The notes beneath the pieces were generated by a model. The model made no database searches and was not told where the DNA came from. It was given only the letters and a program-made list of their open reading frames with translations. Of a stretch of DNA of 64,000 bases, positions 6,450-31,937 are shown piece after piece (position 1 is the first letter of the stretch; each line of letters begins with the position of its first letter). Where the stretch lies: the NCBI RefSeq assembly GCF_019649055.1, contig NW_026570327.1, positions 399,349 to 463,348 on the forward strand, written 5' to 3'. The stretch is from Paramacrobiotus metropolitanus. Lineage: Eukaryota > Tardigrada > Eutardigrada > Parachela > Macrobiotidae. The position numbers were made by a program, and so were the translations under genes.

Positions 6450-9859
<3,410 letters not shown>

Positions 9860-10471: not shown

Positions 10472-11791
10472 ATGTCGCTGAACCGAAACGACACTGGCAC
10501 GTTTTCTAGGAAACCTGGCGACAACGACGCGGCCATGCCGATCGCGTCAGGTTCAGGTCTTGGTGCCACATCGAAGAATGGCGTTGCTGAAAAGAAAGCT
10601 AAAGCAGCGTCGTCGTCAGCAGCGAAAACGGACAGCAATTCTGGAGCGACGAAGGAGCCTGGAACGCTGTCAGATGCTGAAGTCCTGAGCAAATTGACGA
10701 AGGCCGGCGTGGAGAATGTGGAGAAGGTAGGGCGATGTGTGAAAGCTGGGATAGCTCGGGGTTTCATCCAGCTCGAACGTACTGCAGACTTGGATACTGT
10801 TCTTGTTAGTGCTGTGTGTGATGAAGTTTTTGGATTTGAATGCAAGAACAAAATCGACGCCACACTGCGAATGGTTCTGCACCAGAAAGACGAAGGTGAG
10901 TCTGACTGCTTGTGAACGAAAAAATGGAAAATCTACGCGCTTCCCTGCTACCGGGGAAGGTTTTCGTAGTTTTTGACTGCGTATGTTAATAACGGTTCAG
11001 GTTGGTGTCTTGTTTACTGCGATACGACATCCATAATATCTACAGATATAAATCACATAATTATTACAAATTAATCTGATCATTTTACACAGTATTTTCT
11101 GCTCCGGTATTGTGACGTCACTTACAGGCAAAAAGCCAAAATCTTATGTGAACGTTTTGTTTAACTTCTGGGCGAGCGAAGCGAGCCCGCGTTTCTAATT
11201 CAAGACATGTTATTTTAATAATTATTAGGTATTGATGAATACTTGGGATTAGACGACTATGCCGTTCGTTGCGACGGATGCGAACAGGGATATTACGTTA
11301 CCGACTTGTGCACTGCCGATCCAATGTTCTCCGATCCGAAGTATATGCATCACTGCGCTGATTGTCCAGGCCTCGGCAAATGCATTGGTAAGACCTGTGT
11401 GCGTCCAATTTCCAATCTGGATGTGTCCAGAAGTAATATCATAACAATAATAGTGTATTTGCTCTTTCCTAGGAGATATACGCGTGCGTCATTGTAAAAA
11501 ATGTGATGACCACTACTTTGCTGGATCAAATGCGAATTTGAAATGTCCATGCAGATCTGAGGGTAAGTAGAAGACGTACTTGTCAAGCAATCTATAGTTA
11601 GCGTCACATCTTTAGATGGTTCCCTTTTACATAAAGACTACGAGTGTGTGTTTGAAAACCTGCTCAAAAGAAATGTGATGGGCGCAAAGCGTGTCATACT
11701 CGTAAGTTATAAAAGTAACAAATGTTTTCAACACTTTTCGAGCGATTTGGGTTTACATGTATCCAAAAGAAAGTACATCTGGACGTTATGA
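10472..11791 (+). CDS. Cysteine-rich family protein, copy 1 (unrecognised family)
   Basis: I do not recognise this family. Exons 10472-10895, 11229-11387, 11473-11562, 11616-11791 give about 282 residues. The first ~65 residues are low complexity (Ser/Ala/Lys). Then comes a ~75-residue domain A with GVEN..KV..CVKAGIARGFI..LE..DLD and ending LHQKDEG. After it lies a ten-cysteine domain B with spacing CxxC-x9-C-x14-CxxC-x5-C-x8-CxxC-x13-CxC, which suggests structural zinc. No signal peptide or membrane segment is seen, so it is probably intracellular. A second copy follows at 13668-14584 with the same domain order, the same cysteine spacing and two introns at the same codons in the same phase. 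The last exon could instead splice at the strong GTAAGT at 11702; the stop at 11789-11791 assumes it does not. Real coding is very likely; function unknown. Confidence 0.85.
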
Positions 11792-13667
11792 TATAAATTT
11801 TACATTAGCTATGACTTTAGGGTATGTTTTCTTTTTTTTTAATAATAAGTGTTTGTCATTGCTATGGCTCAGTACTTGACTATGTAACATGATCGCAAGC
11901 GCCGGTACACTAATTGAAAGTTAAACTTTAAACATTAAAATATGTTTTAGTTACGGTATCCTCTGTTACTTTAAATGTTTTAACCCGCTGACGACCATTG
12001 GTGTTAGGGCGCAACATGCTCTTCAGAATGTTTCTCTCAATTACCCATAGCAATTAATCGATATGTCATAGCGTGATCAGCATTACAGGACTTCACCGTA
12101 GCAATAAAAAAACAAGCCATACTTGTATCTTAAGTTACTCAAGAACCACGAGCTCGCGAAAGTCGCGAATTTCGAACTTTCTGACCTCCCGAAGGTCCTG
12201 CTAATTAACTAATTAGTACAGTACCTGAGACAATTATTCTGAAGTAATTCAGTAGAGTACAATCAGTGATGCTTTACTAAGAAATGTTAAGCATGGGTCC
12301 TGAAAGTTAAACAATAGATAGCCATAGTCCATCAAAAACTCGTGTTGCGCGCACACACCATTGGGCATGTATGGTCCTAAAGTACAGGCGGGCGCATATT
12401 CGACACATGGTTTTAACATGTTAATCGAATAAGGGCCTGTCGGTTCGAACTTATAACTTTCACCATGTGGTTCTGCTTACCGGAACTTTTCCAAAAAAGA
12501 TTTAGTTGAGCGGCACCCTGGGCGGTCGGCTATCGCCCTCAAACAAACGAATGGAATTCGTTTCCGGGCAACGAAACTTGTGCGTGGAAGTTAAGTTACT
12601 TGTGCGTGGAAGCCATTTTTCGTAATCTACTCTGTAGTATAGCTATGTCGTATCACAGCGCATCAGTGTAACAACCCTGCCGTTGGCCTTTACACCAACT
12701 GGAACAGCGCACGGTGGAGGGGTACAAAGAAAACAGCACATCGGCATCCTGCAGCCGTGAATATAATCGCTATTACAATAAGCGTATAGCCGGTGGTGAC
12801 CTTAGCGGAAGGTGTATAACTGACTTCCGCTAATGTTGCGTTCATGGTTTCGGACGCTGCATTCCAGAACTTTTAGTGCGAGCGTAGTCGCATCACTACT
12901 GCACCTGCAGCCATGCAAAGGCAGTGGCGACATTCATGAACTGTGCAAGCGTTGATCATGCAAACAGTGTAACGGCAACTCGGCAGAATACTTATAGGAA
13001 GGCTGTCGCGTAAAGTCTTGCGAAGCGTAAAGAATAATAATTTTAAAAAAGGTTGTTGAAATTCGCTATTTTTGTTGTGTCCGGTTATCTATCAATCACT
13101 GAATCATGCAAAAACCGTTTCTTTCACTTTCGGTTTTTGCTGACCAGTGGTCACTTTACTGACCATTGGAATACCCTGGTTTTGAAGTAATTTTTATGTA
13201 CTATACGATGAACGTTTTTATTTCTGTCAGTTCTTGCTTGCTGAATTATTATAGAATTATGCGTTTTATGATTAGGACCGTCTACGCCCAATGGTGTTGC
13301 TAAACACCCATGTCACCGCCGGTGACCTATGGTCAGCACAAGCACACAAAAAATTCCCTTTCTTAATTGAATTTTTTTATTGGGAAATCCTGGTTTTCAA
13401 GAAGAAACTCCCACCCCTTCGGGTAGTGGGCGTTGGGGGGTTAAACCTCTTCTTGGTGTGCTTTGTTTTTCGAATTCCGCTTTTTTCAGTTATTAGCGTG
13501 CGTTAGAAATCAACCGGTAGGCGCTTGCCGCTAGTTGTTGATTTGAAATTGTATGGATCTCGGTTTTGCCATCCTTCGCTGGGTTTGCAACTTTACAGTA
13601 GTGTAATTTTCAGCATGTAAATGTTAGAATTGAGTCTCATGATTCATTTCCGAGTTTCCATTTCTAG
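11792..13667. other. Intergenic or intronic stretch between the two cysteine-rich copies
   Basis: About 1.9 kb with no ORF that resembles a domain. It may hold the missing first exon of copy 2: that exon must leave one base, and ATGs at 13291 and 13553 each have a possible GT with that phase, but neither is convincing. No repeat is obvious. Confidence 0.4.
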
Positions 13668-14584
13668 GAAAATCGGTATCGAAGGCCTCGAACGATGAAT
13701 CTGATGACGAATGCGAAACTGATGAAGACAGTGAATCTGATTCTGAGGAAGATTCCGATATGGATGAGGAGGCTCCATCTCTTGCTGACTGCATCCTTGG
13801 TTTGATGAAGGATTTCGCATCGAAAAACCAGGCCACGATTCCTACCGGGCCGCAGGCTATGACCGGCGATCAGGTTCTGGAAAAACTGAGGCGTCTTGGT
13901 GTGGAGAATTTGGACAAAGTTAGTGGATGTGTAAAAGCCGGTATCGCCCGCGGTTTCATCAAGCTGGAGACTGCCAGTGATTTGGATAAAGTGATCGTTG
14001 CAAAGACGGGCAATAAAATTCTGCCAACGGATTGTACTCATAAAGTCGAGGCTACTGTAAAAATGGTACTGCATCAGAAGGATTGGGGTGAGTTTTTCCA
14101 CTGGCAGTTATGCAACAGGTTAACGCTGAGTGCTACTATTTATGACATCTGCACAAACGTAATTTTGCTGTCCTTTAGGTGGAGATGAGTATAATTGCAT
14201 AAAAAATGAACATCCCGTTTACTGTGGTAAATGCGGCGAAGGCTATTTCGTTTCGTGGATTTGCGGGGGAGAGCCGACACTCTGCTACTCGAAGCACATG
14301 AACCACTGCAAAAAATGCCCGGATTTAGGAGTGTGTTTGGGTGAGCTTTTTCACTAAAGCATTCAAATGGATTTCCAGTTATTTTCCACATATTTGTTTG
14401 AATTATACTTAGTCTGAATTTTACTGTAGGATGCTGCCGTGAAGATCACTGTGACCGATGTGGTAAACACTATTTTGCTGGATCCATGAGAGATATGCCA
14501 TGCGACTGCGATGAAGTGGAGGAGACTCGAAAAACTGTTCTACGCTGCTTATTGGAGAATGTCAATAAAACTGGCAAAAAATAG
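13668..14584 (+). CDS. Cysteine-rich family protein, copy 2; first exon not found
   Basis: Tandem paralogue of the gene at 10472. Exons 13668-14087, 14179-14340, 14430-14584. After a TTTCTAG acceptor the frame opens with an acidic Ser/Asp/Glu tract (about 30 residues), then domain A (GVENLDKVSGCVKAGIARGF..LHQKDWG), then the ten-cysteine domain B with spacing identical to copy 1. It ends LLENVNKTGKK. The two introns match copy 1 in position and phase (both phase 1, after LHQKDxG and after the CxG of domain B). An in-frame ATG at 13760 could start translation inside the acidic tract, but the open frame before it and the splice acceptor indicate an upstream exon I could not place. Joining it to copy 1 through the 11702 donor breaks frame. 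Function unknown. Confidence 0.8.
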
Positions 14585-15100: not shown

Positions 15101-15816
15101 TTAAACGCGCTTGTAGTGGCGGACGGCCTTTCCACCGTTCCAGGTGTAGGTCTGCAAACACAAGGACATTCATTAATCACGTTTCCGTTTTAAAAAATTT
15201 TACAGTAGACTTACCAGGGTCAGACCATCATCACGGAATTCGTGATCAATGGTGGCGGTGAATCCGCTCTCCAAGGTCTGCTTCTGGACCAGACGGTCAC
15301 CGTTCAAGGTGTAGGTGGCCTTGATGTTCTTGCCACTGGGGGTCTTCTCGTTGACCTCCTCGTTCAGCTTGAACTTGACGTCCTTGTTGATGACCTCGCT
15401 GGTGATCTTCATGGTGTACTCATCACCAGACTTGCTGAATTCGAGGGTGGGACGGAGCTGTTTGCCGATTTCTAAACATCACATTGAGAACAAGCTTATT
15501 TTGAGTGAATTCAAATCTCAACAACATTTGGTCGCTGCACTGCTTAATCGTTATAATTTACTTTTTATAAATATCAAGAAAAAACAGCGCTAACCGTTGA
15601 CAGCGCCCATTATTTATGCAGAAGATAAAGTAGAAGGCATATTAAAATATTACGAAAAAATACTTATACTTAAAAAATTTTACTGGTACTCATGATCAGA
15701 GTAAACACACAATTACACATACCGATGTGCTCCTCGCTCAAACCGGTGGCACGGAGGTACTGTTCGAAGTTGCCATCGTCATTCTGGTATTCGTACTTTC
15801 CGGCGATTTTGGCCAT
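15101..15816 (-). CDS. Cytosolic fatty-acid-binding protein
   Basis: Intracellular lipid-binding protein (FABP/calycin fold) that carries fatty acids or retinoids in the cytosol. Exons 15816-15723, 15471-15215, 15151-15101; 133 residues, the usual size. Seen: N-terminal AGKYEYQNDDGNFEQYL (the family's G-x-W/Y start and helix-turn-helix lid), beta strands with YTMKITSE, FKLNEEV, ATYTLNGDRLVQKQ and FRDDGLTLV, and the closing TYTWNGGKAVRHYKRV, whose Arg and Tyr fit the carboxylate-binding site. Start chosen at the only ATG before the first strand. A TATA box lies about 90 bp upstream of the ATG. The member (FABP subtype) cannot be told from sequence alone. Confidence 0.95.
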
Positions 15817-27816: not shown

Positions 27817-29551
<1,735 letters not shown>

Positions 29552-30649
29552 TGCGGGTGAAAAGGTTGTCGCATGGAGCTCACTAAGTCTAAAAGAGCCG
29601 CTACGCCTAAAGGATTTTTATTAATTTGGTAGTGATAGTTTTAATTTGTTTTTATTACTCGTCTAAGATTACCATATAATATTTGATTCTGTACGTCCAG
29701 ATGTGCCGTGGCTAGTGATGCGCTGATCCATCTGTCGTTTTACTGGGAACTGTTTTTACAATTTTAGTTGTACATAAGTCTTGTGGTGTTTCCCGAAGAT
29801 TTTAACAACCGGTTGTTATATTTTACCCGTGAGCTGCTACACAGTTCACAGTTACCGTCTCTTTGTTTAATATTCTTTTATTTGTTGACGATTTGGACGG
29901 TGAGTTTATGATTTCAGCTTATTTTACTAGAGTATAATTATGTGGCAGTTATGTGTTGGTTCATGGAATCGACAAACTTTCTTGTATAATATAAAGTTGC
30001 CATTATGTAATGCTTCAACTGTAATGCTTCAACTTTACGAAATGTGCCATGCGACTTTTCGGGAATATGGACTCGTTACACTAGTGTGCGATCGTACTGT
30101 ATGTATCTACAGATAGACTTCAGCAAACCTACTGTAGTCAGTTTTTGTTAGATAAGCCGGACACGAGTGCAGGCATTGTGGATAAGCATACTTTATGGCG
30201 ACCTTTATTGGCCATATCGGTACCATAGACAAGCTTGGCCTTCCAATAATACTCGGCCAGTCGTACTCTACATTATGCACGGGTAGGTATACACTATGCA
30301 CCGGAAGCCCGCTGTGACGTCAGAAAACGACACCGTTGCAGACTTGCAGTACACACCAGACCATAACACTATCTCAGAGAATTAATGGTTCACTTTCAAG
30401 TTGCAAAGATATACAGTACGAAGTTTCAAGTTTTATTAAAAAAAATGTCCTCTTTCAGTCTTTCTGTGGTTAAAAACTTTGGACAAATTGATAATTTTTT
30501 ATCCGAACTAAAGCTAAATAGCTAAGCTAAAGCTAAAGCTAAGCTAATTAGAGCTAAATGGCTAATGTATAATCAATTAATATTTAACGCACCCCCCTGT
30601 TTTAATAATCAGAAACCGACTTTCCCCTTATTAGAGATTACTGAACAGA
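29552..30649. other. Intergenic region between KLF and TYW5
   Basis: About 1.1 kb including the KLF 3' UTR. A perfect CRE palindrome (TGACGTCA) lies at 30315-30322, about 330 bp before the TYW5 ATG. A degenerate AGCTAA tandem lies at 30508-30566. No gene seen. Confidence 0.4.
30508..30566 (+). repeat. Degenerate AGCTAA tandem repeat
   Basis: About eight copies of GCTAA/AGCTAA with one- or two-base spacers, 80 bp before the TYW5 start codon. Confidence 0.7.
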
Positions 30650-31937
30650 ATGACTCTTAGTTTTAAGGAAGAGTTGCTTACAGCTTCATCCGTTCCTACT
30701 CTCATTCCCGTTTATGATGCTCCTACGAATACTGAATTCTTCGATATCCAGGCGCAGCGGCAACCAGCCGTTCTCCGTGGTATTCCCATTGGCGCATGCG
30801 CGGAGAAGTGGACTGCAGCGTATTTGGCGCAACAAGTTGGACGGGATAAACCTGTGAGTGTGCACGAATCATCGAGTAATCGTCTGCGATTCCTAGACAA
30901 AAATTTTGTTTATCGCGTGATGCCGTTTGGAGCCTTTATCGACGCTGCTCTCACATCCAGCGAGGGTGACGCACAAAATAAATTCTATTACTACCGCGCA
31001 CTGGCGGACGATGCCAGGAACGTGCCCAGTGATTTCCGTCGCGATTTTCCTAAATTAGCACTTGACTTTGTGCTCCCGGATTTTCTGGAGCCTGAAACCG
31101 TGTTTTCCTGTGTTTTGCGATGCGGTTCGGCCAATTTGGGATTGTGGTTGCATTATGATGTGCTCGACAACGTGCTCATACAGATCCGCGGACGAAAACG
31201 CGCAGTGCTTTTTGATCCCGAGGATTTTGATCATTTGTACATGCAAGGCGATAAATCACCCATCTTCGACGCGGAGAACGTGGATTTGGAGAGATTTCCC
31301 AAGTTTCGAAATGCGACCAAGTGGGTATGCACCCTGGAAGAAGGCGATATGCTTTTTATTCCTGCTTTCTGGATGCACTACATGGTCGCGGAGGAGTTCA
31401 GCATCGCCGTTAACGTCTTTTGGCACAATCTGCCAAAGGAATTGTACGATAGCAAAGACACGTAAGACAATTCCCAAATTCCCTTTTACAACTTTTCTGC
31501 TTTTAATGGCATGCATTATTTGCGTTGATTTCTCCATTGCCTCATATTTATGTGACATGACAATTATTATGTATTATCGAGAATTTATTATTTATGCTGG
31601 CATATTTTGATAATCTCTTGATATCTAAATTATTTTTAAAGGCAAATGCTGATTGACAAATTCACACTAAAATATATTAGTAATTTTAAGAAATATGCAC
31701 CTTTGTTTTTATGTATAGCATTCTGCAGTTGGTAATCTGCGTATTAACAGTGGTCGCATTTTTAGGTATGGGAACAAAGAATTACTGCCATACTTCCGTG
31801 CATCTCAGGGTCTGGATCGAGCGCTAAAACAGTTGGAAAATTTACCCCGTGAATATAGAAGATTCTATGCCAGAATGCTTAAAGCGAAGCTGGACAAATA
31901 CTTAACCGACTCCGCATCGGAGAGTCCTAAAAGTTGA
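30650..31937 (+). CDS. TYW5: tRNA wybutosine-synthesizing protein 5 (JmjC hydroxylase)
   Basis: Fe(II)/2-oxoglutarate JmjC oxygenase that hydroxylates the wybutosine side chain at position 37 of tRNA-Phe. Exons 30650-31461 and 31766-31937; 327 residues. Seen: iron triad H168-x-D170 (LWLHYDVLDN) and H243 (FIPAFWMHYM), the RGRKRAVLFDP strand, and IAVNVFWH. The second exon holds the C-terminal helical part typical of TYW5 (TYGNKELLPY..LENLPREYRRFYARM). This exon separates TYW5 from other small JmjC proteins such as JMJD7 or HIF1AN. No frame problems. Upstream sequence holds a CRE palindrome. Confidence 0.93.

Follow-up and report, generated by a model that had tools for sequence, protein, structure and literature searches.

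The two neighbouring plus-strand genes that lie within positions 10472-14584 of the Paramacrobiotus metropolitanus DNA analysed here (a stretch of 64,000 nucleotides, hereafter the window) are both genuine, and they belong to a family with at least six members that matches no domain in the libraries searched. Each encodes a domain A followed by a cysteine-rich domain B, as the original prediction had proposed, and the exons of both could be mapped, with GT/AG borders at their introns:

10472-10895, plus strand: copy 1 exon 1, coding for a Ser/Ala-rich tail that includes a KKAK cluster, followed by domain A at 10658-10894; ends in phase 1
11229-11387, plus strand: copy 1 exon 2, coding for the N-terminal half of domain B (C..C, C, HC..C, C)
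11473-11570, plus strand: copy 1 exon 3, coding for the C-terminal half of domain B (HC..C..H, C.C), with a stop if read straight through
11616-11701, plus strand: possible alternative exon 4 of copy 1, a prediction with its acceptor in phase and an uncertain end at gtaagt
13310-13331, plus strand: candidate first exon of copy 2, a prediction consisting of MSPPVTY plus one base, with a weak donor
13668-14087, plus strand: copy 2 exon, an acidic tail, then domain A at 13850-14086; phase-1 acceptor and donor
14179-14340, plus strand: copy 2 exon, coding for the N-terminal half of domain B
14430-14584, plus strand: copy 2 last exon, coding for the C-terminal half of domain B and the tail after it, with the stop

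The expectation that two phase-1 introns fall at the same codons in both copies is borne out by the spliced exons: one intron lies directly after domain A and the other just past the sixth Cys of domain B, and each splits a Gly codon after its first base. Domain A ends in LHQKD in both copies, with a one-residue difference between them in the stretch that leads from domain A to the first Cys of domain B. The first exon of copy 1 is supported by an own-genome match at C107:409820-410311. For its third exon there are two options, splicing at GAGG|gtaagt or reading two further codons to the stop at 11568-11570 (read from the window sequence), and because the exon is spliceable at this point, copy 1 may have a fourth exon from 11616. 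At the other gene, 48 combinations of an ATG with a donor were ranked by an ad hoc score, and 13310-13331 came out top. This candidate begins with MS, like the four family members with a readable start. It is a weak prediction because a scan restricted to the commoner donors listed no first exon for copy 2.

These uncertain ends raise the question of whether copies 1 and 2 might be the halves of one gene in which the two-domain unit is repeated. In favour of this, the mapped part of copy 2 opens at a phase-1 acceptor, its acidic tract is preceded by no in-frame start, and no strong start exon was found between the copies. However, the gtaagt after the possible exon 4 of copy 1 is in phase 0 and misfits the phase-1 acceptor of copy 2, and each of the other four family loci shows one unit within the 4.0-4.5 kb examined. 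A fusion of both copies is unlikely, and we regard the single-gene arrangement as highly improbable.

On the minus strand, the pair is flanked by a class I glutamyl/glutaminyl-tRNA synthetase gene with catalytic and anticodon-binding domains, upstream of copy 1 (6562-8717), and by a fatty-acid-binding-protein-like exon adjoining copy 2 (15203-15478; best PDB match 5gge_A, E 1.5e-11), in which no Pfam family was found at E up to 0.001. Elsewhere in the window, the plus strand carries a C2H2 zinc-finger exon (28615-29190, E 3.3e-7) and a Cupin_8/JmjC-type exon (30635-31462, E 1.9e-44). CAHS proteins, a desiccation-linked family, are known from eutardigrades, and a search of the genome with a Hypsibius CAHS protein gave 20 CAHS-like matches at E up to 0.001 with identity up to 71% (each exon counts separately, which makes the number of genes smaller), on C4, C9, C18, C30, C58, C60, C73, C75, C114 and other contigs.

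The extent of the family emerged from searches of the same genome with four different members as query, each of which recovered the same six loci: C107:410k (F1, copy 1), C107:413k (F2, copy 2), C107:297.6k (F3), C5:3476k (F4), C11:672k (F5) and C234:26k (F6). The size is given as at least six since the search scores its best candidates only; a C41 match at E 0.64 in one of these searches was set aside as chance. Domain A, domain B and both phase-1 introns at the same codons are present at all six loci, the second intron splitting an Arg codon in F5. The similarity is beyond chance: scored against a profile derived from three of the four members outside the window, copy 2 reached E 4e-36 and copy 1 4.9e-32, against 0.027 for the best of 1000 shuffled copies.

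The window genes had been taken for a tandem pair, the product of an old duplication under strong constraint, and here the age and the constraint stand while the mutual relationship does not. In a tree made from a 157-column core, F1, F4 and F6 are split from F2, F3 and F5 with support of 98/97 for the between-group division, so that copy 1 groups with the C5 and C234 genes and copy 2 with the C107:297.6k and C11 genes; the copies are not sisters. Identity is 62% between copy 1 and F4 and 64% between copy 2 and F3, versus 47% between the two copies. With each copy closer to a gene elsewhere, and with the two on opposite sides of the tree, the neighbours stand for two old branches rather than recent duplicates of one another. 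Their age is reflected in a pS of 0.74, close to saturation, at a pN of 0.34, and the full set of 15 pairs gives pS 0.66-0.84 (near saturation) and pN 0.17-0.37, all from a Nei-Gojobori-style count made for this analysis. The low pN against near-saturated pS points to purifying selection on the core. Three of the six members, drawn from both tree branches, lie on contig C107 in the same orientation, hinting at an old local cluster.

Both window copies match C..C.{9}C.{14}C..C.{5}C.{8}C..C.{13}C.C, so the claim of an identical ten-Cys spacing at every gap is correct for the pair and for one further member, but it does not extend to the family, in which three of six have the exact spacing: F4 and F6 have x2 in place of x5 (three residues fewer), and F5 has CxxC at the end instead of CxC. 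What does extend to all six is a set of ten invariant Cys and three invariant His in domain B, in the order C..C, C, HC..C, C, HC..C..H and a final Cys pair, with the second HC..C followed by ..HY. To judge from their number, these residues could make up two or three zinc sites of four ligands each. Two further Cys are invariant in domain A across the six members.

That no known family could be named for the domain B spacing has held up against Pfam, NCBIfam and the PDB sequences searched. Member by member, the best Pfam values were E 0.034 for domain B (Zn_ribbon_NOB1), with no model at cut-off, and 0.046 for domain A (DUF421). Zinc-finger, furin-like, LIM and FYVE families, the kinds of match named beforehand as counting against the idea of an undescribed domain, were sought in Pfam without a significant hit; nine families were listed for domain B of the six members at E up to 10, with LIM, FYVE and furin-like models not among them. 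Among the models that did appear, all below cut-off, were the zinc models Zn_ribbon_NOB1 in two of the six members, DZR_2 (0.1) and MYND (0.42), the latter two in one member each. Of the two full-length window proteins, one gave no Pfam match and the other gave weak ones within its acidic tail; the Tom22, Treacle and MSCRAMM matches all lie in this tail of copy 2. In NCBIfam nothing came near cut-off, and the other weak matches there, of which the lipid-droplet model LipDrop_Rv1109c (0.0076) was the best and MJ0042_CXXC (0.097) another, were taken as chance. Against PDB sequences the domain B profile gave no match at E up to 10, and other queries did no better than 0.3; the whole-family profile, for example, reached a C2H2 finger of ZNF224 at 0.47. 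Viral contigs contained 46 pattern matches for domain B and 133 for domain A, none of them confirmed. Among prokaryote genomes, searched with the domain B pattern only, one of 46 stretches was confirmed, an 11-residue match in Lentilactobacillus at E 1e-5 among candidates, which we take as chance because its frame continues without more resemblance. The six-gene family was not described in the titles and abstract openings of the literature searched.

The faint zinc-type matches bear on a different view of domain B, namely that it belongs to a known zinc-finger superfamily (ZZ, zinc ribbon, MYND or another treble clef) but has diverged too far for sequence profiles to detect. The zinc-finger cores of such superfamilies diverge fast, and the ZNF224, DZR_2 and Zn_ribbon_NOB1 values are joined by a phmmer alignment at E 0.72 between copy 2 and the ZZ domain in BIG, all of them at or near chance level. 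The likeness to the zinc ribbon (PF08772) lies in its CxxC knuckles, but just two members match it at E up to 10 and none is near significance. In the case of ZZ (PF00569), the likeness is between HC..C-PDLGV-C in copy 2 and the ZZ segment in BIG. The ZZ pattern is CxxC-x(n)-CxxC-x5-CxxC with a His pair, and the family does not show it: 24 residues separate the first two CxxC pairs, and five of the six members lack the second CxxC after x5 (a third CxxC occurs only in copy 2). The Pfam ZZ model finds no match at E up to 10 in any of the six, and its 21 matches in the genome at E up to 0.001 include none at the family loci. Membership in ZZ was rejected after an hhalign comparison of the family with seven of this genome's own ZZ domains, taken from seven out of eight loci, which gave 2.9% probability and, as a single comparison, E 0.016 over 12 columns. 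With that result and with no Pfam model at cut-off, divergence from a known superfamily appears possible but rather unlikely. C4-type zinc-finger proteins have been surveyed in four tardigrades including P. metropolitanus, with domains found by Pfam at E up to 0.01, and that 2026 survey reports purifying selection and tandem duplication (PMC12941274). The six-gene family resembles the surveyed proteins in its putative Cys-based fingers, but in our Pfam scans neither the two window proteins nor the domains of the six members reach the survey's E 0.01 level.

Cysteine-rich domains of quite another kind also have to be weighed. Domain B might be an extracellular module held together by disulfides, like those of the TNFR, EGF or furin-like type, in proteins that are secreted; its CxxCxxGYYV is reminiscent of the repeats in such proteins, and the Pfam scan gave chance-level values for TNFR_c6 (0.63, one member), EGF_laminin (0.68, two members) and Ephrin_rec_like (1.4). 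Neither the TNFR and EGF models nor MYND reached cut-off in any of the six members, and the three invariant His beside the Cys argue against the extracellular assignment, as do the N-terminal tails. The four readable N-termini (F1, F3, F4 and F6) all start with MS and contain no strongly hydrophobic, signal-like stretch, the best 11-residue Kyte-Doolittle mean being 1.05 in what is a crude test; F5 and F2, whose upstream exon is not firmly placed, are outside this count. Moreover, K[KR].[KR] clusters precede domain A in five of the six members. We consider a secreted module improbable.

We favour instead, at what we judge to be an even chance of its being right, the interpretation that the six genes encode small nuclear proteins in which a zinc module is coupled to a helical domain and which act as chromatin- or transcription-associated adaptors. 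A variable charged tail, with basic clusters in five members and acidic in copy 2, would precede a domain A of about 75 residues that is probably helical and might serve partner binding or dimerisation; domain B would be a compact zinc-binding module, with two or three zinc ions bound by its ten Cys and three His, that provides a rigid binding face, and a basic tail might direct nuclear entry or touch nucleic acid. We infer the zinc, the nucleus, the helical nature of domain A and the binding role alike. Consistent with such adaptors are the invariant Cys and His, the basic clusters, the lack of a hydrophobic N-terminus in the readable members, the excess of pS over pN and the shared introns, though the clusters are only a hint as a pointer to the nucleus. 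Against them may be set the tail of copy 2, where 20 of 64 residues are Asp/Glu and the readable part lacks a K[KR].[KR] cluster, and the fact that, at chance level, some Cys-rich extracellular Pfam models appear as near as most of the zinc models. Nor do the predicted structures lend support to a zinc fold: AF2 gave four helices for domain A from the two window copies at a pLDDT of 55.6, and a pLDDT of 42.0 for the first half of domain B only, and both models are too poor for a fold search.

It is tempting to speculate further that domain B is a new zinc fold confined to tardigrades and that charged tails have diversified it into nuclear proteins binding chromatin or nucleic acid, possibly with a part in desiccation or radiation tolerance, but we think this decidedly improbable. 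To our knowledge, the stress tolerance of tardigrades is partly attributed to proteins that occur nowhere else. If the fold is indeed new and limited to tardigrades, the six genes would add a nuclear protein family to a stress-tolerant phylum; otherwise they would represent one more uncatalogued Cys-rich family of the sort that is common in animal genomes.
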